NCBI GenBank assembly: GCA_003228915.1
Contig: QIGL01000024.1
Span: forward strand, 1 to 45,066
Direction of reading: 5' to 3'
DNA length: 45,066 bases
DNA from: Acidiferrobacteraceae bacterium
GTDB lineage: Bacteria; Pseudomonadota; Gammaproteobacteria; Acidiferrobacterales; SZUA-150
Positions 12,936 through 16,363 of the stretch are shown in pieces. The position numbers and the translations under genes are program-made. The notes under the pieces are model-generated. The model ran no database searches. It saw only the letters and a program-made list of their open reading frames with translations, and had not been told where the DNA came from. Within the stretch, counting starts at the first letter, position 1. Each line of letters starts with the position of its first letter.

Positions 12936-13349
12936 ATGTCTGATAATCAGGAAAAACGCATTGCAATCACCCAGGCAGTCATGACCTTACTAGATGACTG
13001 GAAGGTACGGGCGACTGACCAAATCAGTCTCCTGGCTTTGCCTGATCAATTTAAAGCCAGGCAACTGCGGCAATACCACCAGGGCACACCTTTCCCTGAT
13101 TCTGAATTACTGGATATAAGAATTGAACACCTCGCTGGCATCGCTGACGCGTTGCGTACTACCTATCCGCGTAACGCCCAAATGGCTACATTCTGGCTAA
13201 ACCAAAAGAATGTACGCTTCAATAACAGATGCCCGATTTCAGTCATGGTTGAAGACGGCCTTGATGGTGTCCAGGCTATTCGTGCCCATCTGGATTGTGC
13301 ATGGGATTGGCATATGGATAGTAAAAATTCAGCAGGTTCTATGTCATGA
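12936..13349 (+). CDS. Xre/MbcA/ParS-like antitoxin-family protein, orphan
   Basis: 137 residues. The N-terminal half is helical (ITQAVMTLLDDWKVRATDQI, LLALPDQFKARQLRQY). The C-terminal part, ATFWLNQKNVRFNNRCPISVMVEDGLDGVQAIRAHLD, follows the pattern of the DUF2384 toxin-binding domain (WL...N..F.G..P...M..G...). Family members usually neutralise a RES-domain toxin encoded next to them, but no RES gene is present. The gene overlaps the following methyltransferase by four bases (ATGA), so the two are translated together. An adaptor or regulator role rather than antitoxin is possible. Confidence 0.65.
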   Translation: MSDNQEKRIAITQAVMTLLDDWKVRATDQISLLALPDQFKARQLRQYHQGTPFPDSELLDIRIEHLAGIADALRTTYPRNAQMATFWLNQKNVRFNNRCPISVMVEDGLDGVQAIRAHLDCAWDWHMDSKNSAGSMS

Positions 13350-13990
13350 GCTGTTGTGCCCATGCAGGATCAGCAAACCGTTTTTTCTCATTTTTTGCAC
13401 GCCGTTATCATAAAAGATATCTCAAGAAAGGCCTGGAGAAAACGCAGTTACAATTAATTGATGGCCTGACACAGGCTGGTTATAAACAATCTACCCTGCT
13501 GGAAATAGGTTCCGGGGTTGGTTACCTGCATCAGCAAATACTAAAAGATGGTGCCACTACGGCTGTGGGCATCGACTTATCAGATAAAATGTTGATCGAG
13601 GCTGAAAAACTGGCCCTGTTCCAGGGACTAGACAAACAAACAGTTTATTTACACGGTGATTTTCTGGATTTAATACCAGATGTTGAAAAAGCAGATGTAA
13701 CAATACTTGATAAAGTCGTTTGCTGTTATCCCGATGCCAATTCCCTGGTTCATGAATCGGTTAAAAAAACCAGCCGCGTTTATGGTTTAACTTATCCAAG
13801 AAAAACCCTGATGACTAAAACTGCCGAGGCAATAATGGCGATCATCATGAAAATCATTCGATCTGATTTCAGATCTTATGTCCATGACCCGTTGCTGGTT
13901 GAGCAATGGATAACGGAGCAGGGATTCAGAAAACTCTACCAGAATCAAACCCTGGTCTGGTTAACCCAGGTTTACGTAAAAAATACCTAA
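13346..13990 (+). CDS. Class I SAM-dependent methyltransferase
   Basis: 214 residues. A Rossmann-fold methyltransferase with motif I LLEIGSGVGYLHQQIL (near residue 50), the acidic loop VGIDLSDKM, and ILDKVVCCYPD at the motif IV position. The N-terminus MSCCAHAGSANRFFSFF is Cys-rich and of a type seen in proteins loosely related to the Mg-protoporphyrin methyltransferase BchM. No substrate can be assigned. It is translationally coupled to the preceding MbcA-like gene. Confidence 0.8.
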   Translation: MSCCAHAGSANRFFSFFARRYHKRYLKKGLEKTQLQLIDGLTQAGYKQSTLLEIGSGVGYLHQQILKDGATTAVGIDLSDKMLIEAEKLALFQGLDKQTVYLHGDFLDLIPDVEKADVTILDKVVCCYPDANSLVHESVKKTSRVYGLTYPRKTLMTKTAEAIMAIIMKIIRSDFRSYVHDPLLVEQWITEQGFRKLYQNQTLVWLTQVYVKNT

Positions 13991-14331: not shown

Positions 14332-15174
14332 TTAACAACAGGCTTTCTTTTGCTGCTGAGATACGCCCTCTGGTTTCACAGCTTCGATATAGGCTGAAAC
14401 GACATAATCCTCGGCATGACTACCTGGCGCCCAGTCTTTGATAAATTCGCGTGACTCATCTTTCGGTTTAATAGAAATATCCTTAAAACCGGCCGCTTTC
14501 ATCATAGTTTCAAGATCGGCAATCATTGAAGCGCCGGCCATACACCCTGCGAATAACTTTTCATCATTTTTCATAGCCGCCGGCATTTCGGCTGTGGCCA
14601 CAACATCTGATATGGCAAGGCGGCCACCAGGTTTCAATACCCGGATGGCATCCTTAAAAACCTGTGCTTTATTTGGCGAAAGATTGATCACACAATTTGA
14701 GATAATAATATCTGCTGCGTTATCAGCGATGGGTAAATGCTCTATTTCACCAAGGCGAAACTCGGTGTTATTAAAACCTGCCTTTTCAGCATTTGCCCGC
14801 GCTTTGCTCACCATGGCCGGGGTCATGTCAACGCCAATCACAACCCCATTTTTACCAACTTCGCGGGCAGCCAGGAATGCATCGAAACCACCGCCAGCAC
14901 CCAGATCCACCACCGTTTCACCGGGTTGAAGACTGGCAATTGCCCTGGGATTCCCACAACCCAGACCCATGTCGGCACCAGCAGGAGTGGCGGCCAGGTC
15001 ATCCTCTGAATAACCTAACCTGAGTGAATTGAGGGTATTGATATCAATATCATCGGAAACACCGCAACAGCTTGAAGCAACCCCACTTTTTTCACCGGCG
15101 TTACTGGCCTTGGCAACTTCACCATAACTTGTGCGGACACCCTGCCTGACTTGATCGGCTTTTTTCTCACCCAT
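14332..15174 (-). CDS. arsM: Arsenite S-adenosylmethionine methyltransferase
   Basis: 280 residues. SAM-binding motif VVDLGAGGGFDAFLAAREVG near residue 85. The cysteines used for As(III) binding are in the expected places: SSCCGVSD near the N-terminus, GLGCGNP, SNCVINL and AGCMAGAS. A KKACC tail closes the protein. It methylates arsenite to methylated arsenicals in the cytoplasm. ATG at 15174 follows GAGG. No arsR or other ars genes are in view, so it stands alone. The adjacent 3' remnant and repeat element suggest local rearrangement. Confidence 0.93.
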   Translation of the reverse strand: MGEKKADQVRQGVRTSYGEVAKASNAGEKSGVASSCCGVSDDIDINTLNSLRLGYSEDDLAATPAGADMGLGCGNPRAIASLQPGETVVDLGAGGGFDAFLAAREVGKNGVVIGVDMTPAMVSKARANAEKAGFNNTEFRLGEIEHLPIADNAADIIISNCVINLSPNKAQVFKDAIRVLKPGGRLAISDVVATAEMPAAMKNDEKLFAGCMAGASMIADLETMMKAAGFKDISIKPKDESREFIKDWAPGSHAEDYVVSAYIEAVKPEGVSQQQKKACC

Positions 15175-15290
15175 TGGTAAACCTCATTAAAATACTAAAA
15201 CGAATAATTGGCTATAACCACTTCACACACTTATGGAGTTAATAGTAACAATTTACAAGGTTAATCGATATTAAAGCCTTTTACCTGGAT

Positions 15291-15347
15291 AAAAAAAGCC
15301 CCACCGAGGCGGGGCTAAAGTAATGGGTTGTTACCCATCAGGAGGAG
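15291..15347 (-). ncRNA. Predicted sRNA 1 of a three-copy anti-SD family
   Basis: Proposed minus-strand transcript of about 57 nt. A perfect CRP-like site is centred 41-42 bp upstream of position 15347, with TTTAAT in the -10 position. The RNA would begin CCUCCUCCUGA, form a 6-bp hairpin AUGGGU-AACA-ACCCAU, and end in a terminator GCCCCGCCUCGGUGGGGC followed by seven U. The exposed 5' end is complementary to Shine-Dalgarno sequences. There is no open reading frame. The start site is inferred from promoter spacing, not observed. Two similar units lie at 15412 and 16259. Confidence 0.6.
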
Positions 15348-15380
15348 GATTTCATTAAACCTCGATCCCGGTGAATTATC

Positions 15381-15396
15381 TGTGAACCAGGTCACA
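15381..15396. promoter_or_regulatory. Perfect CRP-like palindrome, promoter of sRNA 1
   Basis: TGTGAACCAGGTCACA fits TGTGA-N6-TCACA exactly. Its centre lies about 41.5 bp upstream of the inferred sRNA 1 start, the spacing of class II CRP activation. A CRP/Vfr-type regulator is the best guess; FNR would prefer TTGAT-N4-ATCAA. Confidence 0.7.
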
Positions 15397-15411
15397 AAAA
15401 GACCAATACAT

Positions 15412-15462
15412 AAAAAACCCCGCTAAAAAGCGGGGTCAAATCAAACTACTCGTCAGGAGGAA
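15412..15462 (-). ncRNA. Predicted sRNA 2 of a three-copy anti-SD family
   Basis: Proposed minus-strand transcript of about 51 nt beginning at UUCCUCCUGACGAG and ending in the strong terminator ACCCCGCUUUUUAGCGGGGU plus U-run. The UCCUCCUGA block is identical to those in the units at 15291 and 16259, while the middle differs. A degenerate CRP-class site (TGA-N6-TCA) is at the matching upstream distance. The terminator ends 16 bp before the CRP-like site of sRNA 1, so the units are in tandem. Confidence 0.5.
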
Positions 15463-15493
15463 TAACGATAAAAAAACTGTCTGGATCCAAGTC

Positions 15494-15509
15494 CCTGATC
15501 CCATTCACT
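15494..15509. promoter_or_regulatory. Degenerate CRP-class site upstream of sRNA 2
   Basis: Read on the minus strand it is AGTGAATGGGATCAGG, i.e. TGA-N6-TCA with weaker outer bases. Its centre is about 40 bp upstream of the inferred sRNA 2 start. Weak alone; it is the equivalent position that supports it. Confidence 0.35.
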
Positions 15510-15631
15510 TTTCCATATAATTCTGTATATATAACTATTTTCTTGGTTCGTTAATTTAAATATAGACCAAATAAAGAATATTAGTAGTTATCAACTAAAA
15601 ATATTTTGAAAAAATTTACGCTTGCTTAATT

Positions 15632-16075
15632 CTAATTAAAAAAATCACTTGTCACCACATCACTTATAGGCTGACCCAATTCGTTCTCGTGAATAACGAG
15701 CACATATTTACCGGGGCCCGCTCTGCCTGCTGCGGCTTTTGTCACGTCTAATAATGTCACTTCCTGCCCTTTTAGCTCGAGATTTTGCTTAATAGACTCA
15801 ATCATGGTGTCAGTATCTGAGCTAACAATAAATGCGACCGGTACGTCGGGGAAATATTTTTTAACCAAACCAAAAACTGAGGCGTAATTCTCTTTAACCT
15901 CGGAAACAGCGTTTGTAGAGATGACAATACCATCCAGGCCATCAGGCTTGATATGGGGCAACTGTTCCATCTTGGTCAGTGTCTGCGCCTTATAGTGGTT
16001 CCTGATCAGAAACTGGCCCATTTTTTTAGCCAATAGCTGGTTTGGTCGCGCCAGTAAAATATGTTTTTCCTGCAT
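15632..16075 (-). CDS. Unknown protein with receiver-like fold, no phospho-acceptor Asp seen
   Basis: 147 residues from the ATG at 16075, chosen because GCAGGGATGTC precedes it; the upstream in-frame TTG at 16108 has no ribosome binding site. The alternating pattern (KHILLARPNQLLAKKMGQFL, GLDGIVISTNAV, VPVAFIVSSDTDTMIESI) suggests a CheY-like alpha/beta fold. The usual Asp at the end of strand 3 is absent (VISTNAV), so it would be a pseudo-receiver. No output domain. It sits between predicted sRNAs 2 and 3 on the same strand. Function unknown. Confidence 0.6.
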   Translation of the reverse strand: MQEKHILLARPNQLLAKKMGQFLIRNHYKAQTLTKMEQLPHIKPDGLDGIVISTNAVSEVKENYASVFGLVKKYFPDVPVAFIVSSDTDTMIESIKQNLELKGQEVTLLDVTKAAAGRAGPGKYVLVIHENELGQPISDVVTSDFFN

Positions 16076-16258
16076 GACATCCCTGCACATTTGAGCATGT
16101 ATTCTCAAAGAGTAGTCAGTATTTTTAGGTATGCAATTTAATCACGCTACCTTTTGTCAGGTGTTACGGGCAAAAAACTAATAGTTTTTAAAATCAAGGA
16201 ATTAACTAATATTAGTATTTGCGTAATGAAATTTTTTGACAGGCAAAGATAATTAAGC

Positions 16259-16314
16259 AAAAAAAGCCCCGCTGTTCAGGCAGGGCCAATCTGATATTGT
16301 CTATCAGGAGGAGT
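16259..16314 (-). ncRNA. Predicted sRNA 3 of a three-copy anti-SD family
   Basis: Proposed minus-strand transcript of about 56 nt starting ACUCCUCCUGAUAG. It contains a 6-bp stem CUGAUA-GACAA-UAUCAG and a terminator GCCCUGC-CUGAACA-GCGGGGC with seven U. A perfect CRP-like palindrome lies at -41/-42 and TTAAAT at the -10 position. The segment CUCCUGAUA is complementary over nine bases to UAUCAGGAG in the ribosome binding site of the mtrB-like gene (about 1780). No coding potential. Start inferred. Confidence 0.6.
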
Positions 16315-16347
16315 ACCTGTATTTAAGCTGAAAAACGGGTCGCAAAC

Positions 16348-16363
16348 TGTGATCCAGATCACA
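16348..16363. promoter_or_regulatory. Perfect CRP-like palindrome, promoter of sRNA 3
   Basis: TGTGATCCAGATCACA is very close to the E. coli CRP consensus and perfectly self-complementary apart from the central CC/AG. It is placed as in sRNA 1, about 41.5 bp upstream of the inferred start. It also lies 52 bp beyond the imuA stop. Confidence 0.75.

Follow-up and report, generated by a model that had tools for sequence, protein, structure and literature searches.

Putative CRP-controlled short sibling RNAs carrying an anti-Shine-Dalgarno seed in a genome of the Acidiferrobacteraceae

Alphaproteobacterial cuckoo RNAs (CcsR1-4) carry a C-rich motif in their loops that pairs with G-rich sites near translation starts. 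Among the short double-hairpin sibling small RNAs (sRNAs) of Burkholderia, exposed CU-rich stretches are complementary to ribosome binding sites (PMC5688073), and the two tandem Neisseria siblings NmsRA and NmsRB act on mRNA 5' ends through anti-Shine-Dalgarno (anti-SD) motifs (PMC5362039). Xanthomonas sX13 pairs its C-rich motifs with G-rich sites near translation starts (PMC3771888), and CyaR, an sRNA activated by CRP, base-pairs at the SD region of ompX (PMC11795201). The group considered here consists of little-known, mostly uncultured proteobacteria, and no described sRNAs were found for the group related to Acidiferrobacteraceae. Here, we report three putative sRNA units in a 45,066-nucleotide stretch of contig QIGL01000024.1 (the window) and compare them with these systems.

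The window belongs to an assembly of 2.66 Mb in 116 contigs (G000). It was compared with a sister genome of the same genus (G004), whose copy of the locus matches L009, a MAG labelled as uncultured Acidiferrobacteraceae. On the minus strand, the gene order is lexA, imuA/sulA-like, unit 1, an open reading frame (ORF) of ~147 codons, unit 2, unit 3, and arsM; L009 keeps the three units, the ORF, and arsM. The initial annotation described three tandem units within 1.1 kb, and the span holds, but "tandem" strictly fits units 2 and 3 only, because the conserved ORF (~150 codons) separates unit 1 from them.

The units share the 9-mer TCCTCCTGA, found exactly three times in the window, always on the minus strand (16304-16312, 15453-15461, and 15338-15346), against 0.16 expected; none of 100 shuffles reached three or more. 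Each site sits just upstream of an intrinsic terminator (3/3) with a U tail of 6-7, and because a simple finder called just nine terminators in the 45-kb window, the chance of all three 9-mers lying 25-80 nt upstream of one is P ~1.7e-7. Three minus-strand units with the exact 9-mer and a terminator, as first annotated, were thus confirmed. Over the collected stretches, the same finder placed a terminator after YTCCTCC at 5 of 92 distinct sites (units 1-3, C75, and G003, the last two described below). Other TCCTCCTGA sites of the genome were rejected as siblings, being without a terminator; C75 alone has the architecture. The 9-mer joins the seed (TCCTCC) to a hairpin base (TGA), so a free seed followed by a hairpin opening with UGAU explains why it is held in common.

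Units 1 and 3 comprise the following predicted features:
16348..16363, minus strand: unit 1 CRP-type site TGTGATCTGGATCACA, a perfect match, centre 41.5 nt upstream of the inferred transcription start
16321..16326, minus strand: unit 1 candidate -10 TTAAAT (TTGAAT in the sister genome), at -12 to -7 from that start
16258..16314, minus strand: unit 1 predicted sRNA (~56 nt) with 5' seed ACUCCUCC, hairpin, terminator, and U-run
16307-16291, minus strand: unit 1 hairpin CUGAUA[GACAA]UAUCAG, within the predicted sRNA
16287-16265, minus strand: unit 1 terminator, followed by the U-run
15381..15396, minus strand: unit 3 CRP-type site TGTGACCTGGTTCACA, a perfect match, centre 41.5 nt upstream of the inferred transcription start
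15354..15359, minus strand: unit 3 candidate -10 TTTAAT (TCTAAT in L009), in the register of unit 1 and the G003 copy
15290..15348, minus strand: unit 3 predicted sRNA (~58 nt) with 5' seed CCUCCUCC, hairpin, terminator, and U-run
15340-15321, minus strand: unit 3 hairpin UGAUGGGU[AACA]ACCCAUUA, within the predicted sRNA
15316-15297, minus strand: unit 3 terminator, followed by the U-run

The window holds only two perfect TGTGA-N6-TCACA palindromes, the pair originally noted, and they lie upstream of units 1 and 3. A class II CRP promoter was defined by such a site at about -41.5 and a -10, with no -35 required; both units match it at 10/10 positions in a fixed register relative to the inferred start, with 42 and 41 nt, respectively, from site centre to CTCCTCC and TTAAAT or TTTAAT at -10. 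Five promoters, a third genus included, have a TTtAAT-like -10 at this register. Between the window and L009, unit 1 keeps both CRP half-sites and their spacing, the -10, and the RNA, whereas the N6 (site TGTGAACGGCTTCACA in L009) and the -35 region have diverged; the -10 is a conserved island within a diverged promoter, and the stretch from CTCCTCC to the terminator, including seed and first hairpin, is identical. Unit 3 likewise keeps its -10 and its CRP-type site (TGTGACCGAGTTCACA in L009, distance unchanged). The DNA upstream of unit 1 differs in L009, where imuA is absent; since unit 1 is kept there nonetheless, we regard it as autonomous.

The seed is predicted to be unpaired in units 1, 3, and C75. 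Fold z scores were -2.5 (window) and -4.4 (L009) for unit 1 and -4.8 and -4.2 for unit 3. The terminator stems differ from L009 by a G-C to A-U double change in unit 1 and a G-U to G-C change in unit 3. Over six sequences, the stem is 100% paired, compared with 41-62% when partner columns were slid. Both sides have changed at two pairs and a single side at two more; as 42 of 500 column shuffles gave equal counts with these six sequences, the covariation is supportive, not decisive. A short ORF as the content of the units was rejected (MGNNPLL, in unit 3, is not preceded by an SD, and nothing similar occurs in the others).

The genome encodes a CRP (NF008732, 268.6 bits; cut-off, 266) with a Vfr-like sequence (best PDB match, Vfr, E 4e-69). 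Its recognition helix, SREMAGK, is of the R180/E181 type but, as a point against CRP control, has K in place of R185 of E. coli CRP; the alignment with Vfr keeps GELGLF, RSAW, and TS, which we take to be the residues around the cAMP pocket. Two FNR-like proteins (named by eye) are also encoded; TGTGA half-sites fit CRP, not FNR. Hfq is encoded in G000 (101 bits), and with the U-rich terminator tails this matches what is expected of an Hfq-dependent SD-pairing sRNA. Read from sequence, only units 1 and 3 have support for CRP control.

G003, which represents a different genus within the family, has a single copy. Its perfect CRP site, TTTAAT, and CTCCTCC keep the register seen in the window, and it too has a terminator; its gene neighbourhood differs from that of the window, and, as a point against the model, its seed is partly paired with AGGAG. 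A fourth sibling, recognized by its architecture, lies elsewhere in the window's own genome:
G000:C75:8174-8267 (L004:675-768): C75, CUCCUCC followed by a long UGAUGUGC...GCAUAUCA hairpin and a terminator
C75 folds into a free CUCCUCC, a UGAU...AUCA hairpin, and a terminator (z -3.5), has no CRP site, and is a probable sRNA gene. Units 1, 3, and C75 thus share the plan of a sibling family: free CUCCUCC, UGAU hairpin, terminator. The sister genome also holds a weaker candidate, a CTCCTCCTG RNA with a terminator (G004:C10:18934-18986, L103).

A search of the order found the CRP form in three genomes only: the window genome, its sister, and G003. A loose CRP plus TCCTCC pattern gave mostly matches without terminators, rejected as chance-like, and outside the genus the G003 copy alone was convincing. 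In a class sample of 369 genomes, a strict pattern (CRP16, N26-40, TCCTCC) matched 7, with no terminator at any match outside the window's genome; the six other genomes were rejected for that lack, one match lying inside 16S rRNA-like sequence. The order-wide covariance search used a model (R1) whose 3' stem was off by two columns, making it effectively sequence-driven and less sensitive, so absence there is weaker evidence; a model with the corrected 3' stem (R2) was scored on the collected loci. Under both, ordinary-gene terminators (L102, L104, and L106 among them) reach 22-30 bits and C75, because of its long hairpin, only 13.7 bits; hence, neither model finds distant members. The family appears to be new and lineage-restricted.

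The conserved footprint, the compatible terminator stems, the G003 copy, and the encoded CRP/Vfr and Hfq together make it very probable that units 1 and 3 are genuine sRNA genes driven by class II CRP promoters. The original proposal of sibling anti-SD sRNAs under CRP-type control is supported for these two units by footprint, register, and terminator changes, and further backed by the encoded CRP/Vfr and Hfq and the third-genus copy; for unit 2 it is not supported.

We consider it likely that these are lineage-specific short sibling sRNAs, Hfq-compatible and, for units 1 and 3, CRP-activated, which would repress a subset of mRNAs by SD pairing. From sequence features, we infer their transcription, CRP binding and activation, SD pairing, targets, and repression. 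At units 1 and 3, cAMP-CRP/Vfr bound at -41.5 would replace the -35 element. The resulting RNAs of ~56-58 nt would keep their first 7-8 nt, (A/C)CUCCUCC, single-stranded; directly after them would come a small hairpin that begins UGAU, then a terminator with an Hfq-suited U-tail. The exposed CUCCUCC would copy the ribosome's own anti-SD and pair with purine-rich SD sequences, most favourably in mRNAs that continue the complementarity, as AUCAGGAGGAG does; this pairing would block 30S loading and lower translation. Unit 2 would be a relative that displays the motif in the loop of a hairpin and has a promoter of another kind, and C75 a fourth copy with the 5'-seed design and no CRP site. SD-directed translational repression is the best-supported candidate function, and the RNAs are probably ordinary, previously undescribed regulators that lower chosen proteins upon nutrient change.

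A perfect TCAGGAGG precedes an ATG at six genomic sites, against one control match, and 2/6 precede convincing genes (named by eye from sequence), for a membrane methyltransferase-like protein and an M16-type peptidase. The two best SD candidates lie at G000:C22:39616 and G000:C42:4819. With so few sites and genes, no coherent regulon is visible. Predicted duplexes with the two candidate targets reach -14.6 and -15.0 kcal/mol and exceed those of ordinary strong SDs in the window, which pair with the seed at -10 to -12 kcal/mol, so selectivity is plausible. The initial annotation offered two outcomes, a global lowering of translation or the tuning of chosen mRNAs; tuning of a subset is the more likely and global lowering the less likely. 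As a broad brake, CRP-induced mimics of the 16S 3' end would compete for many SDs or be toxic when abundant. The seed does have a 16S-like CCUCC core, many ordinary SDs of the window pair with it at the energies just given, the Burkholderia RF02278 RNAs owe the name toxic to growth inhibition in E. coli (PMC5688073), and ncS27 overexpression attenuates growth (PMC5688073). Global SD titration, however, needs RNA in amounts comparable with mRNA, several siblings with differing middles suggest target choice, and known relatives act on mRNA subsets (NmsR on TCA-cycle genes); we therefore judge such a brake improbable.

Unit 2 has the motif in common with its siblings, but its architecture differs:
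15410..15470, minus strand: unit 2 predicted sRNA, minimal 3' part, an anti-SD-loop hairpin followed by terminator and U-run
15468-15450, minus strand: unit 2 hairpin UCGUUA[UUCCUCC]UGACGA, the anti-SD forming the 7-nt loop
15437-15416, minus strand: unit 2 terminator, followed by the U-run
15457..15517, minus strand: conserved block with a weak TGA-N6-TCA (15494-15509), candidate unit 2 promoter or 5' part
The hairpin is identical in both genomes (fold z -4.1 in the window and -3.0 in L009), and unit 2 is a probable sRNA gene. Two features first ascribed to it fell away. The 9-mer, placed at the RNA 5' end, forms the loop and 3' arm of the conserved hairpin, and because UUCCUCC lies in that loop the RNA must start further upstream. 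The CRP-type palindrome expected at ~40-42 bp, AGTGAATGGGATCAGG (15494-15509), matches the CRP consensus at 7/10 positions, a score equalled at ~290 places in the window, and its centre lies 39 nt upstream in the window and 36 nt in the sister genome; because the spacing changes, we do not regard it as a class II CRP site.

The block at 15457..15517, which begins upstream of unit 2 and runs into it, is ~90-93% identical between the window and L009, apart from indels of 1-2 nt. It contains GGATC-N9-GATCC (N8 in the sister genome), a possible site of another regulator, and GATCAGGGA, complementary to the siblings' seed, as a sponge might be. After the ORF, a strongly conserved AT-rich stretch (15548-15592, minus strand; CTACTAATAT..CTTATTTGGTCTATATTTAAATTAAC) is a possible unit 2 promoter.

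With units 1 and 3 as described, unit 2 might instead be a 3'UTR-derived or sponge RNA that binds and titrates its siblings. The block upstream of it carries GAUCAGGGA, complementary to the siblings' UCCUGAU, and its predicted duplex with the seed has about -10 kcal/mol in the window and L009 alike, while unit 2 itself is without a CRP promoter and shows its seed in a loop; yet 4% of random stretches from the window do equally well and the block is only putatively transcribed, and we think a sponge role unlikely. We give very little credence to a wider scheme, again drawn from sequence, in which a CRP-driven multi-copy anti-SD cassette, with unit 2 as sponge or counter-weight, would let cAMP set the translation of strong-SD mRNAs as a class.

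The genes downstream of the units are as follows:
15632..16075, minus strand: ORF of ~147 amino acids (from an ATG shared with L009), conserved, between units 1 and 2
14332..15174, minus strand: arsM, arsenite methyltransferase (NCBIfam NF008823, 355.6 bits; cut-off, 263)
The ORF product has 91% identity in the same-genus genome, no homologue among 55 further genomes of the order, and no Pfam or NCBIfam match; it is apparently a genus-specific orphan. arsM starts ~120 nt beyond the unit 3 terminator in a neighbourhood conserved in L009. At 12936-13990 on the plus strand, a gene whose product matches Pfam PF09722 (Xre/MbcA/ParS C-terminal) with a score equal to the cut-off overlaps a SAM methyltransferase gene by 4 nt, an unusual pair. 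Every unit lies upstream of a same-strand gene, and such terminators can be attenuators, but a cis role, with units 2 and 3 as tandem terminators in the arsM leader and unit 1 in that of the ~147-aa ORF, is very unlikely given the conserved CRP site and -10 of units 1 and 3 themselves, a conserved promoter-like CTTGTAAATTG...CTCCATAA between the unit 3 terminator and arsM, the different neighbours of the C75 and G003 copies, no evident alternative anti-terminator fold, and no Rfam riboswitch at threshold.

The initial remark that this arrangement was not known elsewhere was too strong, as CyaR already joins CRP activation to SD pairing and Burkholderia has short double-hairpin siblings with exposed anti-SD stretches. 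CyaR (RyeE), enterobacterial and CRP-activated, is a single gene with its own distinct sequence, and no Rfam match to it was found among the units. At the gathering threshold, the units matched no Rfam family. The betaproteobacterial toxic small RNAs of RF02278 (ncS03, ncS05, ncS27, and ncS62) are dispersed, whereas the units here are clustered, and their upstream motif is not shown to be CRP. Against RF02278 (gathering, 50), unit 2 scored 20.8 bits and G004:C10 24.8 bits (closest of all), with no match for units 1 and 3. Anti-hemB (RF02837, Burkholderia RNA 7) resembles unit 2 in that the loop of its first hairpin shows UCUCCUCCCUG, where unit 2 has UUCCUCC, with the terminator next; unit 2 lacks the greater part of the middle hairpin. 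Scores against RF02837 (gathering, 49.5) were 26.8 bits for unit 2, 22.0 for unit 3, and 29.2 for L012 unit 2. These sub-threshold matches were inspected and not accepted, and because scores reach 42-59% of gathering, membership in either family is not claimed.

NmsRA and NmsRB have two internal anti-SD motifs and are under RelA/stringent-response control, with CRP not mentioned, and sX13, which does not depend on Hfq, carries three hairpin loops that are C-rich. The units appear to function like such known anti-SD sRNAs, as a new lineage-specific example in which each ingredient is known. For the group related to Acidiferrobacteraceae, they would provide a compact, testable CRP-sRNA circuit. 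Beside Burkholderia, Neisseria, and Xanthomonas, they would add a further case of short sibling RNAs exposing an anti-SD, which bears on whether SD mimicry evolves repeatedly to couple carbon/energy state with translation.
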